A DNA stretch of 64,000 bases, taken from positions 434,001-498,000 of the forward strand of contig WHVD01000002.1 of the NCBI GenBank assembly GCA_015178975.1. Direction: 5' to 3'. A model generated the notes under the pieces. The model was given only the letters and a program-made list of their open reading frames with translations. It ran no database searches and was not told where the DNA came from. This stretch comes from Hysterangium stoloniferum (lineage: Eukaryota > Basidiomycota > Agaricomycetes > Hysterangiales > Hysterangiaceae). This document shows positions 12,154 through 61,893 of this stretch, in pieces. Numbering within the stretch: the stretch's first letter is position 1; each line of letters begins with the position of its first letter. Made by a program: the position numbers and the translations under genes.

Positions 12154-15100
12154 ATGTTTTCGCAGCAGTATGCACAAGACCTTAGTTGCGCCGAATCACA
12201 AACACCGTTTGTCTCAGGTATTAAATCGGATTTTACACTTATTCTTAACTGAGGCACGCAAACAGAGGAACAAGGAACGACCAACCATCAACCTTCGTCG
12301 ACTGAAAATTTTTCAGGCCCCATTGAGACAGCATCCAGTCGCCATAATGGCTTAGAAAGCGAAGACGATAACCCCTATAGCAAGCACCTTCAATCGGATT
12401 CAACCATATGGTCATTATATCTGAAGGAAACGGAAAAAGACGATAAAGAACTTGCCAACTCATTGCAAGTTGGTGTCGACGAGCTTCTCATATTTGTATG
12501 TTGAATACGATTTTTTTGCTTTATAGATATTCCATTAATACACAGTTTTTCAGGCGGGTTTGTTTGGAGCAATTCTTACCGCGTTCCTGATCGAAAGTAG
12601 GAAGGATTTGCAGGTAGATCCTGTTCAGGAAATCCTTCAGGCGCTTCAAAATCACTTCGCTGTAACTACTACCTCTCAGCCTTTTGAAGTCTCCAAATCA
12701 TCCCTTATTGTCAACTATTTGTGGTTCACTAGTCTCGGTCTGACTCTCTTCAGTGCTCTTTGTGCTGTACTTGCAAGAGAATGGCTGGCGAAGTATATTC
12801 CTGTGTCCCCCGGAAGTCACTCAAATGATGCATGCCAACGTCTCCTTCGTGTTAAGAGAGCACAGCAATGGCGTCTCGAGTCAGTTGTTACTGGAATCCC
12901 GCTTTTGATTCAACTAGCTCTCTTCCTTTTCTCTGCAGGTCTCGTCTTATTCACTTGGAATAACAGTGCAGTTTTGGGCGTTCTTATGCTTGTTTTGACC
13001 ATATCTGCAATCGTGCTATATATACTCGGCACTATTTTTCCCTTGTTGTCCCCCGCTTGTCCCTTTCAAACAACAGCGTCGCGGTTTTTCCCAGTCGTCT
13101 ATGCAAGCGCAAAGTATGACGCGTACACATCACATTACTGTGGGTCTTTGCCACGGACAAGGACGTATACATCCAGAATTTCTGAATGGCTAGAAAGCCT
13201 TTGTCGGTTCCTCGCCGAATTGCATGGCAAGCCTCCACGAGCTGAACTTGAAGCTGATGTCCTGGCATGGGTGATTGCAAACTCCACATCCAAGGAGGCA
13301 GTCAACGAGGCACTTAGGGCTGTAGCAGGGGCTAAACAATGTGAACAGTTGCGGATTGCCTTGTGCCAACCAGCCGTGACGGAGAAATTATGCAACATTT
13401 TGGAGAACTGCTTCCACCTCACCGCAGGCGTCGTGACTGTAGGTGATCTAGCGCTTGCGGAAGTTTCTCTCCTTGCAATGTCACGAGTCCTATCGCCGCC
13501 AACAAACAAACTCATGAACACAGAGTACCTTGCGCCCTTCAAAACACTCCTACATGTCGGGAGACCGTTACATCGGTTGGACAATTTAGATCGTTGCGTG
13601 AAGACATTGGGGTGGGCGGTTTATATTGGTATTTGGGCAAACATGAATGACGGTAACGTGGAGGTGCCGACAGGCCCACACATGGACACGGTGACCACTA
13701 TGGGTGCAGCACCATACGAGCGAAGGACGTTGATGGCGGCGATTATTGATGGAGCACGGTCAGAAAAACAGGGCTTACGTGCAACCTGCGAAGGGTTAAT
13801 ATTACCATATTGGCATCTTGGTGGGGAATCTTTTCATGGCGGCCCGCAAAGAAGCTGATTGATGGGCAGCGGATTGCCGGAAAATGCTGAAAGAAAGGCT
13901 CAATAGCAGGTAAACTGTGTATAACATGAGTCAAAATACACGTTCCTAAGCATTATCACAACAGGGATGAAACGGAGTGGATGAGAAAAGTGGCTGAAAA
14001 AGAAGATTGTACAGGGGAACGATTACTATTGGAATGTGGTAAGAAAATGCCAAATGAAGGAGTACGATTTGACATGCACCGCTTTGTAGCTAGATTCCCA
14101 ACTGGCATCGTTGGTGCAATTCCCGCCATTGTTCAACTGTTGAAGGGCTCTGGTTGGGGCGTTCGATCGAGGGCAGTATGGGTCCTAGGAAAGGTTTCAG
14201 AGCAAGGTGCGGTATCTGATAATGGGATGGGAATCCAGCTGACATTTGGCCACAGCCGAATTTCGAGCCGCCATTGCCCCTGTCATTCCCGGCATTGTTG
14301 AACTGTTGAAGCACTCTGGCTCTGATGTTCGAGCAAGGGGAGTATCTGTCCTGGGGAAGGTTTCAGAGCAAGGTGTGGTGTGATAATAGGATGAGAATCC
14401 AGCTGACATCTGGCCAAAGCCGAATTTCGAGCGGTCATTGCCCCTGTCATTCCCACCTTTGTTGAGCTGTTGAAGGACTCTCACTCTGAGGTTCGAGCGA
14501 GGGCAGTATCGGTCATAGGGAAGGTTTCAGAACAAGGTGCGGTATGTGATAATGGGATGAGAATCCAGCTGACATTTGGCCACAGCCGAATTTCGAGCGG
14601 CCATTGCCCCTGTCATTCCCGCCATTGTTGAACTGTTGAAGCACTCTGACTCTGACGTTCGAGCAAGCGCAGTATCGGTCCTAGGGAAGGTTTCAGGGCA
14701 AGGTGCGGTGTGTGATAATGGGATGAGAATCCAGCTGACATTGGGCCACAGCCGAATTTCGAGCGGCCATTGCCCCTGTCATTCCCGCCTTTGTTGAGCT
14801 GTTGAAGCACTCTGACTCTGACGTTCGAGCAAGCGCAGTATCGGTCCTGGGGAAGGTTTCAGAGCAGGGTGCGGTGTGTGATAATGGGATGGGAATCCAG
14901 CTGACATTTGCCCACAGCCGAATTTCGAGCGGCCATTGCCCCTGTCATTCCCGCGTTTGTTGAACTGTTGAAGGACTCTCACGCTGACGTTCGAGCAAGC
15001 GTGGTATCGGTCCTGGGGAAGGTTTCAGAGCAAGGTGCGGTGTGTGATAATGGGATGGGAACCCATCTGACATTTGGCCACAGCCAAATTCCGAGCGGCC

Positions 15101-18100
15101 ATTGCCCCTGTCATTCCCGCCATTATTGAACTGTTGAAGGACTCTCGCTGGCGCGTTCGATTAAGTGCAGTATCGTTCCTGGGGAAGGTTTCAGAGCAAG
15201 GTGCCATGTGTGATAATGGGATGGGAATTCAGCTGACATTTGGCCACAGCCGAATTTCGAGCGGCCATTGCCCCTGTCATTCCAGCCATTGTTGAACTGT
15301 TAAAAGACCCTGACTCTGAAGTTCGAGCAAGGGCAGTATCGGTCCTAGGGAAGGTTTCAGAACAAGGTGCGGTATGTGATAATGGGATGGGAAGCCAGCT
15401 GACATTTGGCCACAGCCGAATTTCGTGCCGCCATTTTCCCTGTCATTCCCGTCATTGTTGAACTGTTGAAGGACTCCAAATCTGACGTTCGAGCAAGGAC
15501 AGTAACGGTCCTGGGGAAGGTTTCAGAGCGAGGTGCGGTGTGTGATAATGGGATGGGAATCCAGCTGACATTTGACCACAGCCGAATTTCGAGCCGCCAT
15601 TGCCCCTGTCATTCCTGCCATTGTTAAACTGTTGAAGCACATTGACCCTGACTTTCGAGCAACGGCAGTATCGGTCCTGGGGAAGGTTTCAGAGCAAGGT
15701 GGGGTGTGGTAATGGGATGGGAATCCAGCTGACATTTGGCCACAGCCGAATTTCGAGCCGCCATTTCCCCTTTCATTCCCGTCATTGTTGAACTTTTAAA
15801 GCACTATCGCCGAGGCGTTCAATTAAGTGCAGTATCGTTTCTGAGCAACGTTTCAGAGCAAAGTGCGGTGTGTGATAATGGGATGGGAATCTAGCTGACA
15901 TTTGGCCACAGCCGACTTTCAAGCCGCCATTCCCCCCGTCATTCCCGCCATTGTTGAGCTGTTAAAGCACTCTGACTCTGACGTTCGATCAAGTGCAGTA
16001 TCGGTCCTAAGGAAGGTTTCAGAGCAAGGTGCGGTATGTGATAATGGGATGGGAATCCAGCTGACATGTGACCACAGCCGAACTTCGAGCGGCCATTGCC
16101 CTTGTCATTCCCGTCATTGTTGAACTCTTGAAGGACCCTGACTCTGATGTGAGAGCACGCGCAGTATCGGTCCTGGAGAAGGTTTCAGAGCGAGGTGCGG
16201 TGTATGATAATGGGATGGGAATCTAGCTGACATTTGCCCACAGCTGAATTTCGAGCGGCCATTGCCCCTGTCATTCCCTCCATTGTTGAACTGTTGAAGC
16301 ACTCTGACTCTGACGTTCGATTAAGTGCAGTATTGTTCCTGGGGAAGGTTTCAGAGCAAGGTGAGGTGTGTGATAATGGGATGGGAATCTAGCTGACATT
16401 TGGCCACAGCCGAATTTCGAGCGGCCATTGCCCCTGTCATTCCCGGCATTGTTGAACTGTTGAAGCACTCTAACTCTGACGTTCGATCAAGTGCACCGTC
16501 GGTCCTGTTGAAATTATCAGAAGAAGGTAATCCAATAAATATTACTGAAGGATTTGTCTTAAATCTCCATAGGGGAGCTTCTCCCTCTCGTCAAGGCTGC
16601 CGTGTGTGTGGCGGTAGGATTGTCGGACAATGCGCCACCGACGCTGCCTGTGTCACTTTCAATCCCACTTCAACGCATGCCAATTCCCTCTTGTTTTCCA
16701 TCCCATTCTGATCGATTTTGCTGTAATCTAGCAAATGTGCCCGATATACGATCCCTCTCCGCATTGCCTACTCGTCATCTATCGTCAACTGTGGATCTCT
16801 TCCATAGTCCTAATTGTATTTTGCGTCATGAAGCCATCAGGATTATTCAATGCGTAACAATGACTTGTATGTGAAGAGAGATTATGTATCATACATTGAC
16901 TAATTTCCATACCACTTTAAGCGCGGACGTTTTCCCTTCTTTTATGCAGATTCGACCTCAGAGACCAACAAGGAAAGTTCGCTCTGATAACCGTGGTCAC
17001 TGCTTTACATATGTTTGGTATGGGCACCAACTCGCCGTAAACCGCCAGGACTCATGGGCTTGTAGACACTTTTGGACCCGCCATTGCCCGTGTCATTACC
17101 GACATTGTTGAACTGTTGAAGGACTCTGACTCTGACGTTCAAGCAAGGGCAGTATCGGTCCTAGGGAAGGTTTCAGAACAAGGTGCGGTATGTGATAATG
17201 GGATGGGAATCCAGCTGACATGTAGCCACAGCCGAATTTCGAGCCGCCATTGCTCCTGTCATTCCCGGCATTATTGAACTGTTGAAGCACTCTGACTCTG
17301 ACGTTCGGGAAAACGCAGCATCGGTCCTGGGGAAGGTTTTAGAGCAAGGTGTGGTGTGTGATAATGGGATGGGAATTCATCTGACATTCGGCCACAGCCG
17401 AATTTCGAGCCGCCATTGTCTCTGTCATTCCCGCCATTGTTGAACTGTTGAAGCACTCTCCTCGGGGCGTTCGATTAAGTGCAGTATCTTTCCTGGGGAA
17501 GGTTTCAGAGCAAGGTGCGGTGTGTGATAATGGGGTGGGAATCAAGCTGACATTTGGCCACAGCCCAATTTCGAGCCGTCATTGCCCCTGTCATTCCCGC
17601 CTTTGTTGAACTGTTGAAGGACTCTGACTTTGACGTTCGAGAAAGCGCCGTATCGGTCCTGGGGAAGGTTTCAGAGCAAGGTGTGTGATAATGGGATGGG
17701 AATCCAGCTGACATTTGACCACAGCCGAATTTCGAGCGGCCATTGCCCCCGTCATTCCCGCCATTGTTGAACTGTTAAAGCACTCTGACTCTAACGCTCG
17801 ATCAAGTGCAGTATCGGTCCTAAGGAAGGTTTCAGAGCAAGGTGCGGTATGTGATAATGGGATCGGAATCCAGCTGACATTTGACCACAGCCGAACTTCG
17901 AGCGGCCATTGCCCTTGTTATTCCCGCCATTGTTGAACTGTTGAAGGACCCTGACTCTGACGTTCGAGCACGCGCAGTATCGGTCCTGGGGAAGGTTTCA
18001 GAGCGAGGTGCGGTATGTGATAATGGGATGGGAATCTAGCTTGACATTTGGCCACAGCCGAATTTCGAGCCCCCATTGCCCCTGTCATTCCCGCGTTTGT

Positions 18101-20847
18101 TGATCTGTTGAAGGACTCTGACTCTGACGTTCGAGCAAGCGCAGTATCGGTCCTAGGGAAGGTTTCAGGGCAAGGTGCGGTGTGATAATGGGATGGGAAT
18201 GCAGCTGACATTTGACCACAGCCGAAATTCGAGCCGCCATTGCCCTTGTCATTCCCGTCATTGTTGAACTGTTGAAGGACCCTGACTCTGACGTTCGAGC
18301 AAGCGCAGTATCGGTCATGGGGAAGGTTTCAGAGCGATGTGCGGTGTGTGATAATGGGATGGGAATCCAGCTGACATTTGGCCACAGCCGAATTTCGAAC
18401 AGTCATTGCCCCTGTCATTCCCGCCATTCTTGAACTGTTGAAGGACTCTCGTTGGGGGGTTCGATTAAGTGCAGTATTGCTCCTGGGGAAGGTTTCAGAC
18501 CAAGGTGCGGTGTGTGATAATGGGATGGGAATCCAGCTGACATTTGACCACAGCCGAATTTCGAGCGGCCATTGCCCCTGTTATTCCCGCTATTGTTGAA
18601 CTGTTGAAGCACTCTCGCCGCGGCGTTCGATTAAGTGCAGTATCTTTCCTGGGGAAGGTTTCAGAGCAAGGTGCGGTGTGTGATAATGGGATGGGAATCC
18701 AGCTGACATTTGACCACAGCCGAATTTCGAGCGGCCATTGCCCCTGTCATTCCCGGCATTGTTGAATTGTTGAAGGACTCTGACTCTGACGTTCGAGCAA
18801 GCGCAGTATCGGTCCTGGGGAAGGTTTCAGAACGAGGTGCGGTGTGTGATAATGGGATGGGAATCCAGCTGACATTTGGCCACAGCCGAATTTCGAGCCG
18901 CCATTGTCCCTGTCATTCCCACCTTTGTTGATCAGTTGAAGGACTTTGACTCTCACGTTCTAGCAAGCGCAGTATCGGCCCTGGGGAAGGTTTCAGACCA
19001 AGGTGCGGTGTGTGATAATGGAATGGAAATCCGGCTGACATTTGGCCACAGCCGAATTTCGAGCCGCCATTGTCTCTGTCATTCCCGCCATTGTTGAACT
19101 GTTGAAGCACTCTGCTCGGGGCGTTCGATTAAGTGCAGTATCTTTCCTGGGGAAGGTTTCAGAGCAAGGTGCGGTGTGTGATAATGGGGTGGGAATCAAG
19201 CTGACATTTGGCCACAGCCGAATTTCGAGCCGTCATTGCCCCTGTCATTCCCGCCTTTGTTGAACTGTTGAAGGACTCTGACTCTGACGTTCGAGAAAGC
19301 GCCGTATCGGTCCTGGGGAAGGTTTCAGAGCAAGGTGCGGTGTGATAATGGGATGGGAATCCATCTGACATTTGGCCACAGCCAAATTTCGAGTGGCCAT
19401 TGCCCCTGTCATTCCCGCGATTGTTGAACGGTTAAAGGACTCTCGCCGGGGCGTTCGATTAAGTGCAGTATCTTTCCTAGGGAAGGTTTCAGAACAAGGT
19501 GCGGTGTGTGATAATGGGATGGGAATCCAGCTGACATTTGGCCACAGCCGAATTTCGAGCGGCCATTGCCCCTGTCATTCCCGCCATTGTTGAACTGTTG
19601 AAGCACTCTGACTCTGACGTTCGAGCAAGCGCAGTATCGGTCCTGGGGAAGATTTCAGAGCAAGGTGCGGTGTGTGATAATGGGATGGGAATCCAACTGA
19701 CATTTGGCGACAGCTGAATTTCGAGTGGCCATTGCCCCGCTCATTCCCGCCATTGTTGAACGGTTGAAGCACTCTCGCTGGGCCGTTCGATTAAGTGCAG
19801 TATCTTTCCTGGGGAAGGTTTCAGAGCAAGGTGCGGTGTGTGATAATGGGATGGGAATCCAGCTGACACTTGGCCACAGCCGAATTTCGAGCGGCCATTG
19901 CCTCTGTCATTCCCGGCATTGTTGAACTGTTGAAGCACTCTGACTCTGACGTTCGGGCAAACGCAGTATCGGTCCTGGGGAAGGTTTTAGAGCAAGGTGC
20001 GGTGTGTGATAATGGATGGGAATCCATCTGACATTCGGCCACAGCCGAATTTCGAGCGGCCATTGCCCCTATCATTCCCGGCATTGTTGAACTGTTGAAA
20101 CACTCTGACTCTAACGCTCGAGCAAGCGCAGTATCGGTCCTGGGGAAGGTTTTAGAGCAAGGTGTGGTGTGTGATAATCCAATGGGAATCCAGCTGACAT
20201 TTGGCCACAGCCGAATTTCGAGTGGCCATTGCCCCCGTCATTCCTGCCGTTGTTGCACTGTTGGAAGACCCATATTCTGAAATTCAAACAGAAGTTGTTG
20301 ACCTTCTCGTTATGCTAGCAGCCCATGGTGTGTGCCTCCATATGCAAGTCGATACTTTCATCTCATCCATGTTTTCAAAGCTTGCTTTCGTCAAGTTATT
20401 ATTAACTGCAACTTATCACATCACTGTATATCCCTTGTTAATGCTGACAATGACAAAGCTGTTTCTGCTGGTGGAAAATTGTTTGTAGCTTTTGCTCAAT
20501 ATGGTGAGCATTAATTATTTGCATCATTGACTCTTTTCACTGTCTTGCAGGTTACCTTCCCAACATTAAGCTGCGGGTAGTCCTGTCTGCATTGTGCCAT
20601 CTATATTTTCCTATTCCACCTCTGCCACCTCGTTGTATCTTGATTGAAATCCTCTTGAAATCGAGTAAGTGTTTGTATTCTCTCGTTGTCATGGATGCTG
20701 ATCCTGCCAGCTTGTGTAAGCCATACCATCCTTGAAGTTGCTCATATTTTCTCCTTCATAATCTATTTCATGGGGGACATTTCTTCTCAGGAAATTCAGG
20801 TGTTAATCCTACAATTGAATAGACATGGACTATTAACATCCTTGTAG
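12154..20847 (+). CDS. Giant DUF6535-HEAT repeat protein, 45 predicted exons, 2181 residues
   Basis: Exons: 12154-12217, 12254-12495, 12554-13820, 13870-13909, 13965-14038, fifteen 117-bp exons from 14090 to 16526, 16573-16866, 16922-17017, twenty 117-bp exons from 17066 to 20327, then 20381-20503, 20551-20664 and 20711-20847. The spliced length is 6546 nt, a multiple of three, with one terminal stop. The start is the ATG at 12154; a 36-bp intron at 12218 is the least certain junction near it. Residues about 99-268 form the DUF6535 domain: four hydrophobic helices (LLIFAGLFGAILTAFLIES; LIVNYLWFTSLGLTLFSALC; IPLLIQLALFLFSAGLVLF; VLGVLMLVLTISAIVLYILG) with the family's AREWLAKY between helices 2 and 3. 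HEAT repeats fill residues 563-1147 and 1278-2057. Function is unknown; a membrane-anchored protein with a long binding solenoid is the inference. If the 49-bp intron at 13821 is not real, a frame break and a TGA (13860) would disable the gene. From exon 3 onward the introns split codons after the first base, except the one at 13910, which splits after the second. Confidence 0.7.
14090..20327 (+). repeat. Tandem exon-intron array: 35 HEAT units, about 166 bp each
   Basis: Each unit is a 117-bp exon (39 residues, type AEFRAAIAPVIPAIVELLKD then SDSDVRASAVSVLGKVSEQ) plus an intron GTGCGGTGTGTGATAATGGG..CAGCTGACATTTGGCCACAG, normally 49 bp (44, 47, 48 or 50 in a few). Block 1 exon starts: 14090, 14256, 14420, 14586, 14752, 14918, 15084, 15250, 15416, 15582, 15746, 15912, 16078, 16244, 16410. 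Block 2: 17066, 17232, 17398, 17564, 17725, 17891, 18058, 18222, 18388, 18554, 18720, 18886, 19052, 19218, 19382, 19548, 19714, 19880, 20045, 20211. First and last units are the most divergent, as expected for caps. All 35 exons are exactly 117 bp and start and end in the same phase, so any number can be gained or lost without a frameshift. Confidence 0.9.
16527..17065 (+). other. Non-HEAT linker between the two repeat blocks
   Basis: Predicted introns 16527-16572 (GTAATC..CATAG), 16867-16921 (GTATGT..TTTAAG) and 17018-17065 (GTATGG..TTGTAG) leave two exons, 16573-16866 and 16922-17017, giving 130 residues without HEAT pattern (ELLPLVKAAVCVAVGLSDN; later FDLRDQQGKFALITVVTALH). The frame joins both blocks without a stop. 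The alternative is that block 1 ends at a TGA at 16872-16874 and block 2 is a second, 5'-less copy. The exact 117-bp size of the exon at 17066 supports the last splice site. Confidence 0.5.
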
Positions 20848-24124: not shown

Positions 24125-24790
24125 CACTGGAGGCACCCCAAGATTTTTGGAGTTGCAAAACCTTCAAAAAATCTTGCTATTTGGCCAAATTTGCTAAGCA
24201 TTCTTTGAACTGAAAAACTGTTCAAAAATCTTGAGTTTTAGTAGGTTTTTCTGAGGACAGAAATTGTATCTGAAAACCCTAAAGATGTTGATCAGGAAAT
24301 TCTAAGGAAACATTGTTGGAAATAGCCTATTTTCTGTGGATTTTCTAAATGGGGAAATTCTTAAAAAACCCTGGGTTTTGTTAGGTTTTTCCACCCAACA
24401 GAATTCTATGAAAACTGTAATAATTTGCCTAGAGAAATCAATTGAAAACCACATATTTCTGCTCAATTTTTCTGCTCAGGGAATTGGGTGAAAACTATAA
24501 TTTTTTACCAGGAAAATCTTGTGCCAAGACAATGTTTTGTTAATGTTTTGTCAAGGGGAAAACCCATAATGAAATTGACAATTTAATTATATGGGAAATC
24601 ATTGAATAATGATAGATTTCAATAAGATTTTCCTTGGCCACAAACACTATGGAAATTCAAAAAATGTGTTGGTGAAATCTTGAAGAAATTAACAATTTCA
24701 CATGAGTTTCTTAAAGGTTTTTCAAGATGAGAAACCTTGAACTGATTTTTCCTGATTGAGCATGATTCACAAATATTTAAGAGGATTGTT

Positions 24791-27096
24791 TTAGATTCAG
24801 GTAGATTCTTTTAGATTCAGATAGATTCTTTTAGATTCAGATAGATTCTTTTAGATTCAGATAGATTCAGATAGATTCTTTTAGATTCAGATAGATTCTT
24901 TTAGATTCAGATAGATTCTTTTAGATTCAGATAGATTCTTTTAGATTCAGATAGATTCTTTTAGATTCAGATAGATTCTTTTAGATTCAGATAGATTCTT
25001 TTAGATTCAGATAGATTCTTTTAGATTCAGATAGATTCTTTTAGATTCAGATAGATTCTTTTAGATTCAGATAGATTCTTTTAGATTCAGATAGATTCTT
25101 TTAGATTCAGATAGATTCTTTTAGATTCAGATAGATTATTTTAGATTCAGATAGATTCTTTTAGATTCAGATAGATTCTTTTAGATTTAGATAGATTCAG
25201 ATAGATTCAGATAGATTCTTTTAGATTCAGATAGATTCTTTTAGATTCAGATAGATTCTTTTAGATTCACATAGATTCTTTTAGATTCACATAGATTCTT
25301 TTAGATTCACATAGATTCTTTTAGATTCACATAGATTCTTTTAGATTCACATAGATTCTTTTAGATTCACATAGATTCTTTTAGATTCACATAGATTCTT
25401 TTAGATTCACATAGATTCTTTTAGATTCACATAGATTCTTTTAGATTCACATAGATTCTTTTAGATTCACATAGATTCTTTTAGATTCACATAGATTCAG
25501 ATAGATTCAGATAGATTCAGATAGATTCTTTGAGATTCAGATAGATTCAGATAGATTCTTTTGGATTCAGATAGATTCTTTTAGGTTCAGATAGATTCTT
25601 TTAGATTGAATAGATGCAGATAGATTATTTTAGATTCAGGTAGATTCTTGTAGATTCAGATAGATTCTTTTAGATTCACATAGATTCTTTTAGATTCAGG
25701 GAGATTCTTTTAGATTCACATAGATTCAGATAGACTCTTTGAGATTTTTTTAGATTCAGATAGATTATTTTAGATTGAGGTAGATTCTTGTAGATTCAGG
25801 TAGATTCTTTTAGATTCACATAGATTCTTTTAGATTCAGATAGATTCTTTTGGATTCACATAGATTCTTTTAGGTTCAGATAGATTCTTTTAGATTCACA
25901 TAGATTCTTGTAGATTCAGGGAGATTCTTTTAGATTCAGATAGATTCTTTTAGATTCAGATAGATTCTTTTAGATTCAGATAGATTCTTTTAGATTCAGA
26001 TAGATTCTTTTAGATTCAGATAGATTATTTTAGATTCACATAGATTCTTTTAGATTCAGATAGATTCTTTTGGATTCAGATAGATTCTTTTAGATTCTTT
26101 TAGATTCTTTTAGATTCTTTTAGATTCTTTTAGATTCTTTTAGATTCTTTTAGATTCTTTTAGATTCTTTTAGATTCTTTTAGATTCTTTTAGATTCTTT
26201 TAGATTCTTTTAGATTCTTTTAGATTCTTTTAGATTCTTTTAGATTCTTTTAGATTCTTTTAGATTCTTTTAGATTCTTTAGATTCTTTTAGATTCAGGT
26301 AGATTCTTTTAGATTCAGGTAGATTCTTGTAGATTCAGGTAGATTCTTTTAGATTCAGATAGATTCTTTTAGATTCAGATAGATTCTTTTAGATTGACAT
26401 AGATTCAGATAGATTCTTTTAGATTGACATAGATGCAGATAGATTATTTTAGATTCAGGTAGATCCTTGTAGATTCAGATAGATTCTTTTAGATTCAGAT
26501 AGATTCTTTTAGATTCACATAGATTCAGATAGATTCTTTTAGATTCTTTTAGATTCTTTTAGATTCTTTTAGATTCTTTTAGATTCTTTTAGATTCTTTT
26601 AGATTCTTTTAGATTCTTTTAGATTCTTTTAGATTCTTTTAGATTCTTTTAGATTCTTTTAGATTCTTTTAGATTCTTTTAGATTCAGGTAGATTCTTGT
26701 AGATTCAGGTAGATTCTTTTAGATTCAGATAGATTATTTTAGATTCACATAGATTCTTTTAGATTCAGATAGATTCTTTTGGATTCAGATAGATTCTTTT
26801 AGGTTCAGATAGATTCTTTTAGATTCACATAGATTCTTGTAGATTCAGGGAGATTCTTTTAGATTCAGATAGATTCTTTTAAATTCAGATAGATTCTTTT
26901 GGATTCAGATAGATTCTTTTAGATTCACATAGATTCAGAAAGATTATTTTAGATTCAGGTAGATTCTCTTAGATTCAGATAAATTCTTTGAGATTCAGAT
27001 AGATTCTTTTAGATTCAGGTAGATTCTTTTAGATTCACATAGATTCAGATAGATTGTTTGAGATTCAGATAGATTCTTTTAGATTCTTTTAGATTC
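24791..27096 (+). repeat. Decamer/20-mer satellite, left arm
   Basis: Dominant unit TAGATTCAGATAGATTCTTT, with TAGATTCACA variants (25260-25500) and pure TAGATTCTTT decamer blocks at about 26085-26285 and 26530-26690. The 10-bp register is kept through nearly the whole 2.3 kb, close to one DNA helical turn. Confidence 0.95.
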
Positions 27097-27109
27097 ACCC
27101 TAAACCATA

Positions 27110-28893
27110 AAAGAATCTATGTGAATCTAAAAGAGTCTATGTGAATCTAAGAGAATCTATGTATCTGAATCTATGTGAATCTATGTATCTGAATCTATGT
27201 GAATCTATGTGAATCTATGTGAATCTATGTGAATCTATGTGAATCTATGTGAATCTATGTGAATCTATGTGAATCTATGTGAATCTATGTGAATCTATGT
27301 GAATCTATGTGAATCTCAAACAATCTATCTGAATCTAAAAGGATCTTTGTGAATCTATCTGAATCTAAAAGAATCTATCTGAATCTAAAAGAATCTACCT
27401 GAATCTAAAAGAATCTACCTGAATCTAAAAGAATCTATCTGAATCTATCTGAATCTAAAATAATCTATCTGAATGTAAAAGAATCTCTCTGAATCTACAA
27501 GAATCTACCTGAATCTAAAATAATCTATCTGCATCTATGTGAATCTAAAAGAATCTATCTGAATCTATGTGAATCTACAAGAATCTACCTGAATCTAAAA
27601 GAATCTAAAAGAATCTAAAAGAATCTAAAAGAATCTAAAAGAATCTAAAAGAATCTAAAAAAATCTAAAAGAATCTAAAAGAATCTAAAAGAATCTAAAA
27701 GAATCTATCTGAATCTATGTGAATCTAAAAGAATCTATGTGAATCTAAAAAAATCTATCTGAATCTACAAGGATCTACCTGAATCTAAAATAATCTATCT
27801 GCATCTATGTCAATCTAAAAGAATCTATCTGAATCTATGTCAATCTAAAAGAATCTATCTGAATCTATCTGAATCTATCTGAATCTAAAAGAATCTATCT
27901 GAATCTATCTGAATCTATCTGAATCTAAAAGAATCTAAAAGAATCTATCTGAATCTAAAAGAATCCATCTATGTCAATCTAAAAGAATCTATCTGAATCT
28001 ATCTGAATCTAAAAGAATCTATCTGAATCTAAAAGAATCTCCCTGAATCTACAAGAATCTACCTGAATCTAAAATAATCTATCTGCATCTATGTCAATTT
28101 AAAAGAATCTATCTGAATCTATGTCAATCTAAAAGAATCTATGTCAATCTAAAAGAATCTATCTGAATCTAAAAGAATCTATCTGAATCTAAAAGAATCT
28201 ATCTGAATCTAAAAGAATCCATCTATGTCAATCTAAAAGAATCTATCTGAATCTATGTCAATCTAAAAGAATCTATCTGAATCTATCTGAATCTAAAAGA
28301 ATCTATCTGAATCTAAAAGAATCTATCTGAATCTAAAAGAATCTATCTGAATCTAAAAGAATCTATCTGAATCTAAAAGCATCTATCTGAATCTAAAAGA
28401 ATCTATCTGAATCCAAAAGAATCTATCTGAATCTAAAAGAATCTATGTGAATCTAAAATAATCTATCTGAATCTAAAAGAATCTACCTGAATCTAAAAGA
28501 ATCTACCTGAATCTAAAAGAATCTAAAAGAATCTAAAAGAATCTATCTGAATCTATGTGAATCTAAAAGAATCTATCTGAATCTAAAAGAATCTATCTGA
28601 ATCTAAAAGAATCTAAAAGAATCTAAAAGAATCTATCTGAATCTAAAAGAATCTATCTGAATCTAAAAGCATCTATCTGAATCTAAAAGCATCTATCTGA
28701 ATCTAAAAGAATCTATCTGAATCTAAAAGCATCTATCTGAATCTAAAAGAATCTATCTGAATCTAAAAGAATCTATCTGAATCTAAAAGAATCTATCTGA
28801 ATCTAAAAGAATCTATCTGAATCTAAAAGAATCTACCTGAATCTAAGAGAATCTATCTGAATCTAAAAGAATCTACCTGAATCTAAAACAATC
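27110..28893 (-). repeat. Decamer/20-mer satellite, right arm (inverted)
   Basis: Reverse complement of the left array (GAATCTAAAAGAATCTATCT), about 1.8 kb. It has its own sub-blocks, such as GAATCTATGT repeats at 27190-27310 and AAAAGAATCT at 27595-27700. Block order and lengths do not mirror the left arm, so the arrays have changed since the inversion. Confidence 0.95.
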
Positions 28894-38965: not shown

Positions 38966-40542
38966 ATGGGGTCGATCTTGTCAAGTCCGATATTGAAAAG
39001 AGGTGACAACAACAGATTTGGATTCTTCGAGTCGGAATCTCCTGGTAGTATCTGTTCTCCTCGAGCTAGTGAGTGGCGTACGGTGCATTTACCTCTAAAC
39101 CCTGAATAAATCACCAAGTAGCCTGCAGCAGCGACCACATCAACGCACTCCCGGATGGAATATTGCGTCGGATATTCGCTCTACTCTTTGAGCCTTTTCC
39201 TTCAGTGGACTATACGACGTTGGATCTAGTCGTCATGCGCCCAGAGCTCCGGCTGTCTGACAACTACCTCGACCTGCATTACGGGCAACATATATTGACT
39301 TCGGTATGCTCACGATGGCGTTCTATCATGCATGATACACCTGCTGTGTGGAGTACCATTGTGCTTGAGAGGTTAAACCCATGGTATACCGATAGACTGA
39401 GCCAATGCCTCAAGTTCTCCGGCACACATCCTCTCGATGTGTATATCCGAATATACTTCGCCTATACGTCACTTGCTGACATGGTCCCCTATTTGTTATT
39501 GCTCAACAAAGAGCAACAGCGTATTCGTCTGATCGTGTCTCCCCATTTGTTCCAAGTTGAAGCACTGGCGCTATTTCCTATTGACGAAGATCGTTCATCT
39601 AAGTATATCTCTCTCAGAGTACTTCAGATACAGCGACTCGAAGCGGACTTGAATAGTTGCCCCATAGGTGACTTATATACTCCCAACCTCCGTTACCTGC
39701 ACCTACCTGAAAGCACTGCACTTGCATCCTTCGTTGCTGAGCTTCTGCCCATTCGATTTCTAGACGTCTGGCAAAACAACCCCCTAACGACAGCTTTATC
39801 GGTCTTCGGTTTTCTGCAACGTTGTCCCCAATTAGTATTCCTTCACTTGGGGATGGGGGAAGATTTTTCAAGCACGGCCTACATGGTGTCGCCCGAGACA
39901 AGAATCACCTTATCCCTATTACGCCACCTCGTATTCCAATCATACGGAGGTCCAAATTCTACGATTCTACTTCGTCTTTTAGATCTTCCCGCTCTAAGAG
40001 AACTCGAATTAGGCGATTTGGAGGGTCAGATATCCCCAGACCCTTTCTTCAAATGTGAATTACTCTGGCATCTCTTACCACAGATTTCTTCGACGCTTAT
40101 AGAATTGACTTTTCACCGAAGTTGTCTTGCAACTGGGGACCACGTCATTGAGCCGTTGCTCGCAGGACTGACCAATATGCGAACACTTTCATTCATTGGT
40201 TTGGAGATGAAACAGAGCTTCCTGGAACTCCTTATCCCTGTTACAGATGGTGCAGAACAAAGCTGCGCAATGCCGCATCTATACCATTTAAATTTGTTCG
40301 AGATAGACATTGAAGGGGATGCATTAATCAGGCTCATTAAATATCGTGCACCATCCGACGAGGAGCTAAAGCTTATTGAAGTCAACAAGGATGGTCAGGC
40401 TACAACATCGGGACTTCAGGTGAAAAGCTTGCGAAAAGTAATATTGTTGAGGTGTTGTGTCCTGGAAGATGCGACGTTCTCACAGTTGCTGTCGATTCAA
40501 AAGACTCATGAGACTATATTAAATGTTGTTACCAACTTCTAA
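38966..40542 (+). CDS. F-box protein with LRR-like C-terminal region
   Basis: Two exons: 38966-39068 and 39122-40542 (intron GTGAGT..CAAGTAG), 507 residues. The N-terminal F-box reads INALPDGILRRIFALLFEPF .. VCSRWRSIMHDTPAVWSTI, the usual basidiomycete arrangement, and joining the small first exon is what completes it. The remaining roughly 400 residues show irregular leucine-rich strands (LRYLHLPES, LRELELGDLEG, MRTLSFIGLEM, LYHLNLFEIDIEG). It would recruit a substrate to a Skp1-Cul1 ligase; the target is unknown. No lesions seen. Confidence 0.8.
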
Positions 40543-45907: not shown

Positions 45908-47348
45908 TCATAATTTGTAAATGATCCTGCTCTCACTTTCCTCGGCCTTAACGTGGTTAGTGCCACTCGCCATAATCTCCATTTCACGGAGTGCCCAATT
46001 ACGAATCAACCACACAAAATCCCACATCTCTTTCTGCGAATTCCCTGCATGAATGGTGACTCTCAGTCTTTCCGAGCCCCGTGGAACCACCGGAAAAGCA
46101 ACAGCCAAAACCCTGTGGCCATGTTTGCACAGATATTCTTCCAGTGAAACGACTTTAGAAGAGAGGATTGGGAATATAGGAGAAATGAGTACAGGCTGCG
46201 CCGTCACATCTTCTTTTGAGGGTATTTGGATTGACTGATTAGGCCACAGGAGGAGGGTTGTGGGGATATCGGTGAATGATTCTTGGAGCAAGCGCGCAAA
46301 GAACCGAGTGTTCTCATGAAGCTTTTGTCTTTGCTAGACGATCGTGAGAGAGGCGAAATACAATAATACCGTGTGTCGCATACCATATCTCCCACCGGTC
46401 CCATAACCAAATTAAAACATTGCTTGATTGCGATCAGATCAACGAAAGGCAATGCCGTACCGTACACATACGGCCGAGCAAAGGTTTCCATGAAATCCAA
46501 AATTGTGGTCGATGTCAAGATTACCGCTGCAATACCATAAAATAATTAGACAGTTAATATAAATTGAATTATTCAAAGTATAAGCCTTACCCCCTATGAT
46601 TCACGCCTTTGGTCAAGGGGTGAATTACTGTATGAATACGGTCTTGACGTCCCCACAAATGAATAAGACCTTTTCCTTGCGGCCCATACAATCCAATAGT
46701 GCGTGCCTCATCGACGACTATGTGTACTGCCTCCGGTGGAATATATTTCTCCACCAAATTAACAAGCTCAACAAGTGGACAAAAATCACCATCCATGCTA
46801 TATGCCGATTCTAGAATAACAAATAGGGTGGCTTTCCCAGATGTGATGAGTTGATTCTCCTCGATGATCTTCTTCAAGTGACCCTCTAGCGATTGCATAC
46901 AATTGTGTTCAAAGGGGATCATGGAGTGTCGTGCTCGGGACATCCGCATCCCGTCAATAAGGGAGGCATGCACTAACGAATCATAGAGCAGGACATCCCC
47001 CATCTGAGGGATTGTTCCGGTAAACGCAATGTTGGCCGTAAAGCCACTATTGACGAGGATTGCAGCTTGTGCATTGAAGACTTGACGAAAATACGCTTCG
47101 AGGGCCAAATGCTCCAAATTCGTACCGCCTCCTACACGTGTGCCCCGCGCACCGAAGAGAAATGGTGAAGTTTCGAGGGCTTTGAGATATCCACGACGGA
47201 GAGTAGGGTTGGAAGATAAAGATAGATAGTCGTTATTGGCGAAATCTACTGTGGCAGGGAGGTGGATCTTTTCAGCGTTGTGTGGGATTCCTGAGGCGCG
47301 ACGTTCTTCAAGACCCTTCTCTAGAGTTCGTTTGAGAGTTGAATACAT
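45908..47348 (-). pseudogene. Alpha-oxoamine synthase (8-amino-7-oxononanoate synthase-like), likely inactive
   Basis: Minus exons 47348-46591, 46526-46384 and 46333-45908. PLP fold-type I enzyme of the AONS/ALAS/KBL family: FANNDYLSLS, GARGTRVGGGTNLEHLALE, VNSGFTANIA, YDSLVHASLIDG, ESAYSMDGDFCPL, the lysine segment IHPLTKG (family HTFGKALG), FARPYVYGTALP and a C-terminal VPRGSERLRVTIHAGNS. The conserved DEAH reads DEAR, so the histidine that contacts the cofactor is replaced (CGC, one transition from CAC). At the first exon end the five-G run makes the spliced frame one base too long; with four G the frame would join to AVILTSTTI. Total about 441 residues if in frame. Members make a biotin precursor or similar aminoketones; a specialised-metabolism role is equally possible. 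Confidence 0.8.
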
Positions 47349-49113
47349 TGCTGGGAGGTTTGGAAAAAGTTATCGTAGACTCGTGGGTTTTACTGGCACC
47401 TTTAACCACTCCACCTTTATATCCCAAATTATATCCTAAATTAATAAGTTGGTTTTTGATCCCGACTGCTCCCGGAGGAAATACAGTTTGGTCCCATCAC
47501 TCGGACCGTCTGGAGCAGCAGCATCCGGATTCCCAGAATAAGGGCACTTTCTCCAGCGCCTAAAACCATTTTACAGAAGGGGCCCTCGTAATAATATGCA
47601 TCTGTAAATGCTTTTCGCGCCGAGAAGATCCAATTTGAGATCCTCCCACATTCTATGCTGAAACGCACTGAGACCTCTTGAACCTTCTAGTCCGAAAACC
47701 CCGGAAGTAGGTCAGACCGCTTAACAAAGCCTGTGTATTGCTCGACGAACTAACGAACAGGATACATTGCTGGGATGATTATGTAAGTAACTAAAGGCCC
47801 GCTAGTATGCCTGGGCGCCAGGCTTACACTTCACCGATGCTCTTCAAGAGGACGAGGAAAAGAGAATGTTCTACATCACCTCGGAAAATAGTTCTAGGGT
47901 AGGATTCTGCGTGCCCTGCCCTTATTTAGTACTTGTACATATTGATTGAAGATTGTTCGGCTAGCAACGAGGCGGTGTGTGGCGTGTGACCAGGCGCACT
48001 TATAAGACGGCCTTGGCCCGGACAAGGGAAGTTGTGAATATAGACACGTATAGACACGGCGTGGGTCCATATAGGATTCCATCAATCTGGTCCACGAAGT
48101 CCCTGTATGTCTACCGCGAGCAAACACTGAGGTAAGTTTCCTAACTTTTATGCTCCTTGGTGAGTTACTATTTATACTTGCGACATAATTTTCATTGTCT
48201 AGTATCTATTCTAATATGCGGACCCAAAACAGCATTCAGCTTTGGTGACCGGTAGTTGGCCGTGATCCATGTGTGGTAAAATAATCGGTTGCTGCTCTGA
48301 AGACGGCCTAATATTGTTAAGATTGAAGAGCTTTCGAGCTTGCACACACCGTTTATTGTTCATCGTTTATCACATATCATATATTTACACACCATCACTT
48401 ATCCATATCGGCTGTGACTGCCTGTTTAGGACTCGGGATTGGATTAGGGGGAAGAAGCAAACTTGCACATCATGATGGAATACTAGAGAATCAGGGAGTG
48501 CAATTAGTGAGAGGTTTAGAGGTGCGGCAAAATATTTGACCCCAGAGTTTTCTGTTATCTCCCTCAGTTTTGAAAGTTTTAAGGAGCTGTCGAACCATTC
48601 TGTTCTAAGACCTATTTGAGTGTTTGGTTAAAGGAATAGGCATTTGGACTTGTGTGTGGCCAGAGTATAGCGTTTTGTACAAAAGTGGCGGTGACCAAGT
48701 GAATGGTACACCCCTTTCACCCGCACGAAAACCTGCCGTGTATTTTCAGCACGAACTTATCCGGGTTGTAAAATTGAAAAACCTTCCCGAAGGTCGGCGG
48801 AGAAGTGTTTCGTTATTTGCTCTTCATGACACCTGGGTGTGGATCTTGTCTAACGAACACCCACCGCGCTGAGGCTTAAATTCTTGATTTCGGAATATCC
48901 TCCATAAAACCTTCACAATTTTTTTACAGAGGATCCTCTCGTCATACCCTGATATGTATCATCAGATATATAAAAATCGTGGAGAAGTATTTTCTTTTTG
49001 TGTAGACTCGAATGATTGCCTAGCAGATGTTCACAACAAGGGTCCATTCGTCCATTTGTTGCAATACCTATTGAATAAGTGTTATAAGTGAGGTTGCGGC
49101 GGAACGTAGTGAC
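47349..49113. other. Mostly non-coding
   Basis: Includes a 75-residue minus frame (47441-47668) of unknown nature and a perfect short palindrome GCCTGGGCGCCAGGC near 47809. The latter resembles the terminal hairpin of the LTRs at 1451 and 52142, but no full LTR could be delimited. No gene supported. Confidence 0.35.
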
Positions 49114-56690: not shown

Positions 56691-57634
56691 TAGTTTTGGG
56701 GGTGGTTATGGATTGATTCAAGGCAAGGGCAATTTCTTTCGGTGGGAGACATCCTGTTGGTTACTTTCAGATACGTCATAGCGACTTCGAGGTAATATTC
56801 TTGTAGAAGTTCCTGTTTTCGCTAACTCTAGTGTGTATTTGTGTGTAATTGCATAGTTTGTTTCAGATAATATCTTAGCTTTGGGGGTGCGTCAGCGATT
56901 GGAACTTTGTAAAGAGGATAGTCTCAAACGGTGCTTCGTCAGCGTCCATGCAACGTTGTGGTATTACGAAGCATGACAGCCTTGTAAGCTGGCGATAGCG
57001 GATGCCCAATCACAGTGGGAATCTTCAGTGTTATATTGTCATCACTGTGACCTTGGTCGTCAATTGTCTTTACTGTGATGACCACACTATTCAGTACTTG
57101 AACCTTAGTACTGCTCAGTATTCTTCCAGCTTATGGTTCGCGGCACGGCTATCCCACAAACGTATCTGGAAGTGAGGTAGCATCGAGAGAGTCGGAGCGC
57201 CAGTCTATGCCTTAGGGGTTGTCTGGCGGTGAACTCAACATCAAGCTGACCAATATTGATCGACAGGCTATGCTATAGCGCCTCATCAAGAGAGAACGAC
57301 ATCGTATGAAGTTAAATTTTTCTAAGGATCCGTAGGACCCTTCCTCCTGTCTAGAAGTGCTGGTGTCGCTACAGATTTTCCGCCAAATGTCCCCCCTTCA
57401 CTTTGTGATCACTAGTTTCGCACCTCTTTTGACAAATACTCTAACATCCATCATCAATCTTCAACTGGGACAACTTACGATATGTCCAGTGGGTTTTCAG
57501 GTCGTCACACAAAGGACACTAGTTACTAGTGAAAAAACATACCTACAGAAAAGTCAGTGGTCATGGAACTAAATATTTACAGAGGAGAGATATGTGCCGA
57601 ATGCCTTTGGATGGAACCAATATAGAACAAGACG
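56691..57634. other. No recognisable gene
   Basis: Only short frames. It forms the 3' side of the SnoaL-like gene. Confidence 0.4.
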
Positions 57635-58119
57635 CTAGTCGAAGACATCTTGCGCTTTGCCCTAGGGTTATGTTGCCATAGATAAAATATACCGAAGCTC
57701 ACAAACGAATAACGACTCACAGCAGCGATAAATGCAATCACCGCAGCTGTATCAAGCCATTCCTTTAACTCCTCAATCTTCCCTTCTTTAACCGTAAACA
57801 CCATTATTATCTCATTACGATACGTCCGTCCATCTGCCATCTCGCCTTCGAGCGTGGCCTCCAAAGCTGCCTTGTCCTTCTCAGCCGTGATGGCACTCGC
57901 TATGAATGTCATTTTCTCGAACTCGTTTAGAATGGCCGCAATTAAGTGATGTCGCTCGGAAAAGGTGATAGCTCCTCCACAGAGAGGAGACCCGGGGTTG
58001 GGGCTACCAACCATCCACCATGTCGCAGATGGAGAGGTCAGAGCGAGAACATCAGGGAATCTGCGATTGTGGAAATGATCGACGAAGGTAGCGACGATTT
58101 CTTTGGGCGTGAGTGACAT
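57635..58119 (-). CDS. SnoaL-like NTF2-fold protein
   Basis: Exon 58119-57721 (133 codons), intron 57720-57662 (GTGAGT..CCTAG), then a tiny exon 57661-57635 encoding GKAQDVFD and a stop; 141 residues in all. It starts MSLTPKEIVATFVDHFHNRR, with the alpha helix, FPDVLALTSPSATWWM, the cavity strands and EGEMADGRTYRNEIIMVF, then VKEGKIEELKEWLD. This is the SnoaL_3 pattern. Such small cone-shaped proteins act as cyclases, hydrolases or binding proteins; the substrate cannot be told. If the small intron is not used, the frame stays open to 57577. Confidence 0.75.
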
Positions 58120-58472
58120 TATGATAGTTGTGGGGGTTGGATTGCAGTATTTTAAATAATCTTTTCCCCGGGGAATGAGGTTAATATATATGCTAACAAT
58201 TGACAATTGACAAAGACGAACTTGTCACATGTTGGACCTTCACTCCGGCATTAATTTCCTTCAAATTCAAGCTCGCCTGCTTAATAAATATGAGATTACT
58301 CATAAATACAACGTCTAGGAGTAATTAAGGTTTTTTTTTTACGTAAATCTGGTGCTTACTTATTTGCAACGAGAATTCAAACTTTCCAACCGCATGATTT
58401 TCTCAAGATCTAAGATTTACCACACATATATTGATTACTACCAGGAGATTGCTTATACTTCTGATTGACCCT
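58120..58472. other. Upstream region of the SnoaL-like gene
   Basis: A TTTAAAATACTG (minus) lies about 30 bp above the start and may serve as a TATA-like element. Nothing else seen. Confidence 0.35.
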
Positions 58473-58915: not shown

Positions 58916-61893
58916 ATAGCCTTGTCTGGAACTAACGCGATTCTAAGTGGGATTTCAAAAATTATATCCTTTGCTAGGTTGCTCGTCCACAATAAGCAGA
59001 GCATTTCTAAGCGGTCTAAATATCACTCTTTTTGGCTTAGGGTTCTCGGTAACCTACGTACACGTCCTCAATCAAACGCTGAACCGCCGCAAAGACCATA
59101 TCTGGTCCGTCTGGCGTGAGTGAAAGCTTAACGCCACATTCCTAATTATCGAAATCTGCATATCCGATCCTGCTTATCGTCCGCATGACGTAGCAGGACC
59201 TCAATTCAACCTCTCGCCTCTCCTTGGAGTTATTGAAGATCTTCAATTGAGAATTACATTGGACGAAACGACAGGCACAAGGTTGACGGATCTAATGTAA
59301 AGATACGGCTCGGATTTACATGTAATGTTCCAGATACATGCCCCTACACTACGTTATACTTGTAAATTAGCAAGCTGCGCTTCACTCAGTTGTTGTTCAG
59401 GTGTGCCCCTCAGTGCTCTGCCGTTGAAATTTTCTGATTGAAGTTATGGAATAATTACATAAACCTTACTTGTGTGGCATTGCTTTAAATGACGCAAGTT
59501 TTACATGATATTGTCGCGCCCTACAACCCAGATAAGCTCAGTTTGTTCGCATTGGCATAAATAATATTGATTTTACGTTTAGTACTATACCCCAACTCAA
59601 TTCTATCCGTAAGGCATTGTCCATATCAGCACGGGCATAGGCCAGATGGTGGGGTTACCCGGTGATCAGGATGTGCCGGTACCTTCTTGCGGGCCATGCA
59701 CCAGGCCCGGAAAACTTAGAAAGACCTGTTTCTAATTTCTGGAAGACTGATGGCTAAAATTTCCCTTCGGTTAGAGTGTCAGCTGGTTGACTGGATGTAG
59801 TACAATCTGATTCGACCACAAACACCCATTGGTCTTTTCTTAGTAAGTCTCCCCTTCAAATTCATCTCGCCTGAGTCCTTCCCCCCCTTGTTTTTTTTTT
59901 CACGTCCGTATCACTAGTAGAACCAATATGCAATATATAATTATGTACAGTTTTTTCACAGGGGTATTTTCGATAGTTCTACTCCATGATAGAAGCAACT
60001 TGTCGAATATGGAATATGACGATTAGAAATTCACGTGGTAGTACCGACACTTGTCTTGCCGCCTCACGGAAAACTATGGAATCATTTACTCAACTCCGAT
60101 ATTTCCTAAATAAAAAAAAACCAAGGTCTTGATCCGCCGGCTCAGTTCTTTGTGGGGCAGTCAAGCTGGAGATCTGAACCCGATGTTCTTCAGAAGAGTG
60201 TTTTGACTCATTGTCTTTTGTGGACATCCTAAACCAGTCATGGAGAAAGATTCCCTATTTTGCACTTTTTTTCCTTCATATTTTACCTATCATCTCAGAT
60301 CTATGCAAAGATGAAAACTCACAATGATATTCGAGGTGGTCGGCGGGTGTCGCGATGGACCGGACATACAGGGCACAGGTATATGTATTATGATCGCCAT
60401 GGATGCCCTCCCCTCTTGGTGATTGGGCCATGTCTGGATTAATCCGTGGTCCGTGGTTATCTCAATGGATCAATTCCTGCTATTCGGCGAAGTTAAGACT
60501 CGTTACATCGCAAACTATGGAGAAAAAGGTTTCAACACAGTCTTGAAATCCGTTAGTGGTGGCACAGAACTCCAAAAAGACCGACACAGGGAATGAATTC
60601 GGCAATTATTTATGAATTATTTCATGATGCCGATTCGGAATCTATGTTAAAAAATTATCGTTCAGTTTCCTTTGCGAGCTTGGTCGGGTAATTCTGGACG
60701 ACTCGTTTGGGTGAATGAATGAAAATTTTTGGTCAAGTCCAGACGTCCTCTTCGTATGAAGGCATATATCTTGAAATATGTTCTGCATTCAGAATGTCAC
60801 AGCTCGTAAATGTGCTGACCGGTGTGAGTTTCAACAGTATGCACTGGTTGGGATGCTTCGGGTCTCGGGGCGCGAACGCCGTGTCATGCCCTTGGCTTTA
60901 TGAATTGGTTCTTTTTAAAGGAGATCGTCATGATGCACCGGACAGAAAGAAATATCATTCAAGGACCGCAATCCATTTATTCATGGGGGGGATCCGCAAA
61001 AATCCTGCCGGACCCCATCCGCCATGTCATCGACGCCAAGTCGAACTTAGGGGAGTAACCACCGCGGTCATCGTGTGGTTCTCAAGAAATAGAGTCCGGA
61101 GCGAAGGCCGGGATTTGCGGATCCCAGCCAAAGGCGACGTGGCAAGGCATAGAAACTGGTTCGAATGAATTAAATGTTAGTCTCCCTCACAACTGCGACC
61201 ACCACGACCTGCCAGCCTCGTGTCTATCGTTATGAGTGCTCCATGTCGTTGAGATACAAGCTTCCAAAATGACACGAATTTTATCCTAATTGTCGAATCA
61301 TTGCGTTCGTGGGCATCCGCATCTAGCTTGAGATATAGAAGTATCCAATACGGGCTGCGTATTAGATTCGGAAAACTGAAGTCCCGGCATGCACTTGCAC
61401 GTTTATACCCCGATATAGTGTGAAGATCCCTTGCACGTGCATGCTGTATACTTATAATGACTTGTTTTTAGATAACACTAACCTCTCATTTGCTTCTATC
61501 GGGAGATATTCCATCAAATTATTGGCACAAGTGTGCCTTAGATGATTGAGCCCTACCCCCCATTGGTTACTATCGGCATATGGCCTCGCCGTCTGCCTGG
61601 TATCTTCTGGTATGTGCTCTTAGTAAAATAGAGTCCTCCATAATTTTCATAATTATGTTGAAGAGGGACGTACTTTCCAAACGACGTTGACTACTTTTTG
61701 AAGTTGATAACATGGGTTCACTTTGACTTATCGATAGCAATATATAATCCATATACGTACTTCACAGGTTCACAGATATCGGGTTCCCTTCCCATCATCG
61801 ATATCGTGTTCCCTTACACACCGAATGACTTGGCAGTAGGTCAGCTTATGTAAGGCACCATGATTATGTTATCCTAAAGTGCTCCTGTCCTCC
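58916..61893. other. No gene confidently recognised
   Basis: About 3 kb of mostly AT-rich DNA. 60260-60442 (+) contains GHRYMYYDRHGCPPLLVIGP, coding-looking but unassigned. A 149-residue + frame (60719-61168) is Arg-rich and unknown. No RNA gene or repeat seen. Confidence 0.35.

Follow-up and report, generated by a model that had tools for sequence, protein, structure and literature searches.

A stretch of 64,000 nucleotides from the fungus Hysterangium stoloniferum (called here the window) contains an array of short exons, for which an earlier note proposed that each exon encodes one HEAT repeat and each intron is nearly identical to its neighbors. H. stoloniferum (Hysterangiales) is called ectomycorrhizal in the available text of PMC7550596. 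The array raises the question of whether repeat, exon and intron are truly locked together in one gene, whether this organization is peculiar to one locus or belongs to a family, and what kind of protein may be built in this way.

The array and the gene that carries it

Tandem Repeats Finder places a single array in the window at 14119-20263, with a period of 166, 37.1 copies and a score of 7213. Division of the window at acceptor-like sites, followed by a search of the window gene with an exon profile, resolves 35 units of 117 bp, all phase 1-1, each directly preceded by AG and directly followed by GT (35/35 on either side). Every one of these exons is a single 39-residue HEAT repeat, as the earlier note had it. 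The units are separated by 33 short spacers (49 bp in 26, 47 bp in four, and 44, 48 and 50 bp in one each) and by a 34th of 539 bp (16527-17065), which splits them into groups of 15 and 20. The array reported at 14090..20327 thus exists, with its period of 166; it is not continuous, the 539-bp interruption having gone unmentioned. Among the introns that measure 49 bp (26, with 21 distinct sequences), mean identity is 92.8%; the introns of successive units are homologous, and their earlier description as near-identical and mostly 49 bp long is borne out. The 35 exons have a mean identity of 83.6% and no two are the same; the interior units have a mean amino-acid identity of 74.8%, and are alike but not near-identical as protein. 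Units 18-19 and 28-29 represent a two-unit copy (98-99% identity). Read without splicing, the array has 93-94 stops in each of the three frames, and removal of the introns is what we infer for the window gene from its sequence.

The window array was compared with 16 paralogous arrays (17 in all, on 16 contigs) and with a further array, L065. The resulting gene model has the following parts.

Whole gene: 12154..20847, + strand; 45 exons, 2,177 aa; flanking splice sites placed by alignment with paralogous arrays
Exon 1: 12154..12217, + strand; putative start codon at 12154, as chosen in the earlier note
Exon 2: 12266..12495, + strand; DUF6535 match begins here
Exon 3: 12554..13820, + strand; main exon of DUF6535; four hydrophobic segments, of which the first starts in exon 2
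Exons 4 and 5: 13870-13909 and 13965-14038, + strand; linker to the array, frame open
HEAT block 1: 14090..16526, + strand; 15 phase 1-1 exons, each 117 bp, separated by short introns; from the exon profile
Block 1 unit starts: 14090, 14256, 14420, 14586, 14752, 14918, 15084, 15250, 15416, 15582, 15746, 15912, 16078, 16244, 16410
Mid-module exon A (exon 21): 16573..16866, + strand; donor GT in 17/17 arrays
Mid-module exon B (exon 22): 16922..17017, + strand; acceptor AG in 17/17 arrays
HEAT block 2: 17066..20327, + strand; 20 phase 1-1 exons, each 117 bp, separated by short introns; from the exon profile
Block 2 unit starts, first ten: 17066, 17232, 17398, 17564, 17725, 17891, 18058, 18222, 18388, 18554
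Block 2 unit starts, last ten: 18720, 18886, 19052, 19218, 19382, 19548, 19714, 19880, 20045, 20211
C-terminal exons: 20381-20503, 20551-20664 and 20711-20847, + strand; placed by alignment with L049, L052 and L060, frame open

Once spliced, the model has an open frame of 2,177 codons that ends in a single stop, and all 44 introns are GT-AG. The linker exons 4 and 5 have GT donors and AG acceptors across 14 arrays aligned by eye. The three arrays used for the C-terminal splice sites are the only ones among the other 13 open arrays that reach far enough. A TGA at 13856 was considered as the end of the gene and ruled out, because the paralogs support an intron there.

The 539-bp interruption holds a module of two exons that is in frame on both sides in the window gene. 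The spacer at this position is 525-543 bp long in all 17 arrays, and exon B is 96 bp and open in 16 of them, the exception being the decayed array L059. Three ways of joining the module exons were considered. Splicing from GTATGT to the later acceptor breaks the frame, and splicing from GTGAAG to the later acceptor leaves an open frame of 2,169 aa, a version since superseded. The final join, from GTATGT to the earlier acceptor, is conserved in 17/17 arrays, open in 16/17, gives the 2,177-aa protein and agrees by eye with the join in the public model P0025. The Pfam scan of the mid piece and the search that matched the array to public H. stoloniferum proteins used queries from the 2,169-aa version, which differ at the module join. 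Within exon A, the 57 bases at 16675-16731 end in AG. Their first two bases are GC in the window gene, several paralogs have GT instead, and single-base length changes around this segment are found mostly in the paralogs with GT. This segment is possibly an optional or young intron.

The N-terminal part of the protein matches DUF6535 (PF20153) at aa 70-234, with 155.9 bits against a cut-off of 23.9 and over the whole profile (1-177). The match lies within the same open 45-exon model as the array, so that the attachment of a DUF6535 domain to the repeats, claimed before, holds. HEAT (PF02985) is matched with 142.5 bits against a cut-off of 23.5 in seven stretches of a 909-aa piece. Hydrophobic windows of 19 residues are present at aa 95-113, 154-172, 213-231 and 238-256 (scores 1.9-2.8). 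HEAT helices also have windows that exceed 1.4 (up to 1.85), so only these four N-terminal windows are taken as candidate membrane segments. They are consistent with the membrane anchor that had been suggested, and the DUF6535 part is probably such an anchor. No nucleotide-binding domain was found in aa 1-909 among the best 25 of 47 Pfam families (to E 2e-6), nor among all nine families of the mid piece and both families of the C-terminal piece, most of block 2 lying outside the scan. The 204 residues coded by 13208-13819 match no Pfam family at E up to 10, and a structural model of DUF6535 (mean pLDDT 68.8) has no PDB match at E 0.001 or better.

A dispersed family with conserved splicing signals

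The cassette unit has at least 552 matches in the genome and DUF6535 has 75. Among the matches listed, cassette arrays occur at at least 42 places on 27 contigs, some places being a single position (43 groups were obtained, and the two ends of the L062 array on C201 were counted as one). DUF6535 matches of at least 60 bits number 60, and for 30 of these listed units lie within 9 kb downstream. One of the other 30 was examined (L065, C550:243000-247000) and the cassette was present there too, with 19 of 20 matches being 117 bp long and flanked by AG and GT. L065 belongs to a divergent DUF6535-linked subfamily, in which autocorrelation peaks extend up to four units (664 bp). The same plan of two blocks and a module is found in all 17 compared arrays, which together hold 500 units, 481 of them exactly 117 bp long. 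That the cassette of one repeat per exon is a trait of a large dispersed gene family is strongly supported.

Public proteins of H. stoloniferum match the array and are annotated as armadillo-type. The models P0025-P0030 and P0033 are fragments of 294-693 aa, some of them reading through introns. In eight public proteins, units are joined at the predicted junctions (27 joins, by a loose motif), and a motif of intron read-through is also present in two of the eight.

The fragments bear on the possibility that the window copy is two adjacent genes, one with DUF6535 and block 1 and a separate one with block 2. The 539-bp module between the blocks would suit such a division, as would the finding that none of the public models examined covers both blocks in full. 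The module is, however, present in 17/17 arrays, and its splice sites are conserved. In the window gene it is joined in frame to both blocks, and it is flanked by HEAT repeats in P0025 and P0026, which run HEAT, module, HEAT. We consider two genes quite unlikely.

Stops and exon lengths that break the frame mark three of the 17 arrays (L050, L051 and L059) as clearly decayed, and these were set aside; the 14 arrays that remain are largely open. Any contrast between open and decayed arrays is descriptive only, since they were sorted by these very defects. L050 (C129) and L051 (C17) are near-identical unit for unit, most units at 98-100%, and about 1 kb that separates units 18 and 19 on C129 is absent from C17. 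The pair represents either a recent duplication or two haplotypes. The decayed copies, together with the difficulty of assembling tandem arrays, would favor the view that the length of the window array is mis-assembled or that the window copy is itself a pseudogene. This is very unlikely, given that all 35 exons are distinct, that the frame is open across 2,177 codons and that the same plan recurs in 17 arrays on 16 contigs and in L065.

The 14 largely open arrays contain 433 units that are complete within the fetched stretches. AG precedes 430 of them, three being without it; GT follows 430 and GC three. A stop codon is present in only two (L052 and L056). Of 412 full exons, 407 are 117 bp long, and the departures (108, 108, 111, 111 and 114) all keep the frame, whereas a length other than 49 bp is found in 115 of the 410 short introns. 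In the 290 introns of exactly 49 bp, G1, A36, A48 and G49 are fixed in 289-290, and position 2 is T in 287 and C in three, as expected of a donor, a branch point and an acceptor. Five bases farther into the intron there is another GT (G in 260/290, T in 284/290); being less conserved, and because its use would break the frame, it is a less likely donor than the first. Exons that keep the frame, introns that are free in length and splice signals that are fixed are hard to explain in combination if the introns stay in the transcript or the exons go untranslated. No intronless retrocopy was found among the matches listed of 518, where spans of about 253-288 bp imply an intron.

Introns diverge less than dS in 17/17 whole arrays, which suggested extreme intron conservation. 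Close pairs of units do not bear this out: intron divergence is 0.081 (97 pairs) against a pS of 0.094. Interior four-fold sites give 0.137 against 0.110 for introns. By both comparisons, the introns look nearly neutral.

Turnover and diversification of the units

For 59% of the interior units (n = 377), the nearest relative lies in their own array; when labels were shuffled 200 times, the mean was 7.4% and the maximum 12.2%. In 14/14 arrays, the first unit is matched best by other first units. The best match is to like-placed units for 95% of the units after the module and 78% of those before it (n = 14 each), and units taken as last match one another in 78% (n = 9, with the stretch ending within 82 bases of the unit in four of the nine, L056, L058, L062 and L063). 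As judged from these matches, the interior units evolve in concert within arrays and the first units are conserved by position. Mean unit identity is 0.843 within arrays and 0.827 between them; the small difference indicates that exchange between arrays, or shared ancestry, also matters.

The number of units varies among arrays: block 1 has 10-26 and block 2 has 12-31 across the 14 arrays, the block 2 values being lower bounds in nine, where the stretch ends no more than 82 bases from the last unit. The proposal that whole repeats are gained and lost in an expandable solenoid is borne out by these ranges. In the close paralogs L056 and L058, the module is 97.6% identical, block 1 has 10 and 11 units, respectively, and the aligned units are 88-97% identical. 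Of the 14 open arrays, only L052 and L055 contain runs of at least three consecutive units at 96.5% or more, four runs in total. It had also been argued that the symmetric phase is what allows units to be exchanged. Exchange of whole units is indeed safe for the frame; the phase is not the cause, since a bare array of 117-bp units would keep the frame in any in-register exchange. What the introns contribute is tolerance of length changes at breakpoints, with 115 altered lengths in 410 introns against five in-frame changes in 412 exons.

Selection was examined in 177 disjoint close unit pairs, in which pN is 0.068 and pS 0.094 (overall pN/pS 0.73). The ratio is 0.16-0.28 at positions in the core of the repeat, I11, L17, L33 and S37 among them. 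At codon 24, 74 non-synonymous changes were counted where 41.3 were expected (p = 2.9e-6), and this codon alone survives correction for 38 codons (p about 1e-4); the ratio also exceeds 1 at codons 22 and 23, not significantly once corrected. Whole-array dN/dS is 0.54-1.19.

The introns provide an independent scale. Over all within-array interior pairs, and with intron splice sites left out, diversity at the first and second positions of codons 22-24 is 0.235-0.488, against 0.037-0.229 in the 49-bp introns. These codons exceed their linked introns in 14/14 arrays, by 1.8-9.7 fold, and core codons are less diverse than introns in 12/14. Codons 22-24 were picked after the pooled data had been viewed. 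When the top three codons are taken from the window gene alone (27, 22 and 23), they are above introns in 12 of the 13 other arrays, L063 being the exception, and codon 24 is within the top five in 12/13. The residue triplets at 22-24 are of 112 distinct kinds in 375 interior units.

The structural model of P0026 (mean pLDDT 66.4) consists of helix-turn-helix units, each with a helix at residues 1-19, a turn at 20-22 and helix B at 23-37. It has 449 PDB matches at E 0.001 or better, and the 50 listed are mostly designed repeat proteins and importins. Its mid module, with pLDDT under 50 at 188-286, is unreliable. According to this model, the variable residues would fall in the turn and the first part of helix B; the models are of modest confidence (mean pLDDT 66-69). 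In the HEAT scaffold of PP2A, such turns form a ligand ridge. Both marks of recognition-type repeats, concerted evolution and hypervariable surface codons, are found here, with the codons chosen post hoc and their surface position taken from the model.

Much of this could in principle arise in an ordinary scaffold protein, in which units are homogenized by unequal exchange and purifying selection acts on the fold only. HEAT solenoids are often scaffolds, the pN/pS of close pairs (0.73) is below 1, and concerted evolution is by itself enough to explain why units are array-specific and why copy numbers vary. Neutral concerted evolution nevertheless meets a difficulty at codons 22-24, which are 1.8-9.7 times as diverse as linked introns in every one of the 14 arrays: a mere relaxation of constraint should not raise diversity above that of linked, nearly neutral sequence. 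Codon 24 is moreover above neutral expectation in close pairs. Such a neutral history is doubtful, though it deserves to be weighed. We regard it as probable, with some reserve, that the protein is a recognition solenoid evolving by cassette exchange and diversifying selection, probably anchored in the membrane by DUF6535.

Known systems, proposed role and surroundings

The WD repeats of Podospora het-d and het-e undergo concerted evolution, vary in number and have, in each repeat, a few hypervariable and positively selected codons on the surface of interaction, according to the accessible parts of PMC1805685, and other fungal NLR repeats follow the same regime in the portions available of PMC4986451 and PMC12222747. 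To the extent covered by these texts, the genes described here resemble het-d and het-e in forming a family with concerted repeats, variable repeat number and a few hypervariable codons on an interaction surface, which in our case is taken from a model. They differ in having HEAT rather than WD40 repeats, in lacking a detected nucleotide-binding domain in the pieces scanned, and in a lower identity between repeats. The accessible parts of PMC4986451 use 85% identity as the mark of high internal conservation in fungal NLR repeats. The window gene (74.8%) falls short of it, and one of the 14 arrays, L052 (85.1%), reaches it. The likeness to NLR proteins with high-identity repeats, drawn from the sequence before, accordingly holds for concerted evolution and site-specific diversification; it does not extend to repeat identity or to the NACHT or NB-ARC nucleotide-binding domain of fungal NLRs, which was not detected in the pieces scanned. 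An intron in each repeat of het-d/het-e-type genes was looked for in the available text on these genes, and none is described there. Fungal N-NACHT NLRs, which are candidate receptors, also carry C-terminal HEAT repeats (PMC12258605, in the part available); here DUF6535 stands in place of NACHT, which was not detected in the pieces scanned. The domain order is shared by P0001 of Mycena venus (807 aa), with DUF6535 followed by HEAT and 37% identity over 99% of a 792-aa query. Its 39-residue repeats are of the AEFR type and, counted by eye, number about five, against 35 units here.

The earlier note knew of no described case of repeat, exon and intron locked together in this family. Within DUF6535-HEAT genes and in the literature searched, this stands; the wider class does not go undescribed. 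Duplication of intron/exon modules is recognized as a class of repeat-protein genes (Street, Rose and Barrick, 2006, as described in the accessible parts of PMC4585158 and cited in those of PMC3995336). As in that class, so far as these texts describe it, each exon is a whole repeat and repeats spread as intron/exon modules. Unlike the genes described there, those reported here form a fungal HEAT family in which each exon holds a single unit and the introns are near-identical; the arrays are dispersed and number in the dozens, and there is an excess of variation at the turn. PMC8786786 was considered as a precedent and rejected, since its genes have one or two introns in the text available. 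One-HEAT-per-exon arrays in fungi were not found in the literature searched, outside which most subscription papers lie, and a single paper was found there that mentions DUF6535, as an entry in a table of expression data. The mechanism class is thus known; what appears new is a fungal HEAT family in which repeat, exon and intron are locked one-to-one, and as a gene-family architecture this is strongly supported by the sequences. Repeat, exon, intron and recombination unit coincide in hundreds of copies (at least 552 unit matches), and since each repeat comes with an intron of its own as a linked and nearly neutral standard of comparison, diversifying selection on a repeat protein can be measured directly. 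Because the public models of these genes that were examined are fragments, families of this type may go unnoticed elsewhere.

The family appears to expand, contract and diversify through exchange of cassettes, in the manner of recognition genes. In a recognition solenoid of this kind, the DUF6535 N-terminus would sit in the membrane, with a long HEAT solenoid of exon-intron cassettes behind it. The sequence comparisons show that the cassette (a 117-bp phase 1-1 exon with an intron of about 49 bp) is the unit that is duplicated, lost and homogenized, with the first units and the mid module remaining fixed. They also show that the core of the repeat is conserved and that residues 22-24, at the turn between the helices, are hypervariable, more so than the linked introns. 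From one repeat to the next, these turn residues may be aligned along a single ridge of the solenoid and make up a surface for a ligand, where cassette exchange and diversifying selection could generate novel binding surfaces, as in the repeats that serve non-self recognition in fungi. The least certain points are the ligand, which by analogy could be a non-self or partner molecule, and the proposal that DUF6535 signals at the membrane on binding. Non-self recognition, with DUF6535 as a signaling or anchoring part, is a guess. If such a function holds, basidiomycetes possess a recognition repertoire outside NLRs. An extended version, which we think unlikely, is a dispersed repertoire of non-NLR membrane-anchored receptors in which the cassette is both the unit of DNA exchange and a unit of in-frame exon skipping, giving many solenoid lengths and ligand ridges per mycelium. 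Such skipping is conceivable because all 35 exons are phase 1-1.

The rest of the window holds other features. About 4 kb downstream of the gene, two long 20-bp satellite arrays (24784-27097 and 27108-28893) stand head to head, and their consensus units are reverse complements of each other. Farther on are a weak F-box/LRR-like ORF (39106-40539), an aminotransferase piece (46590-47369, - strand), a SnoaL-like ORF (57580-58224, - strand) and a Sel1-repeat ORF (61864-63042).
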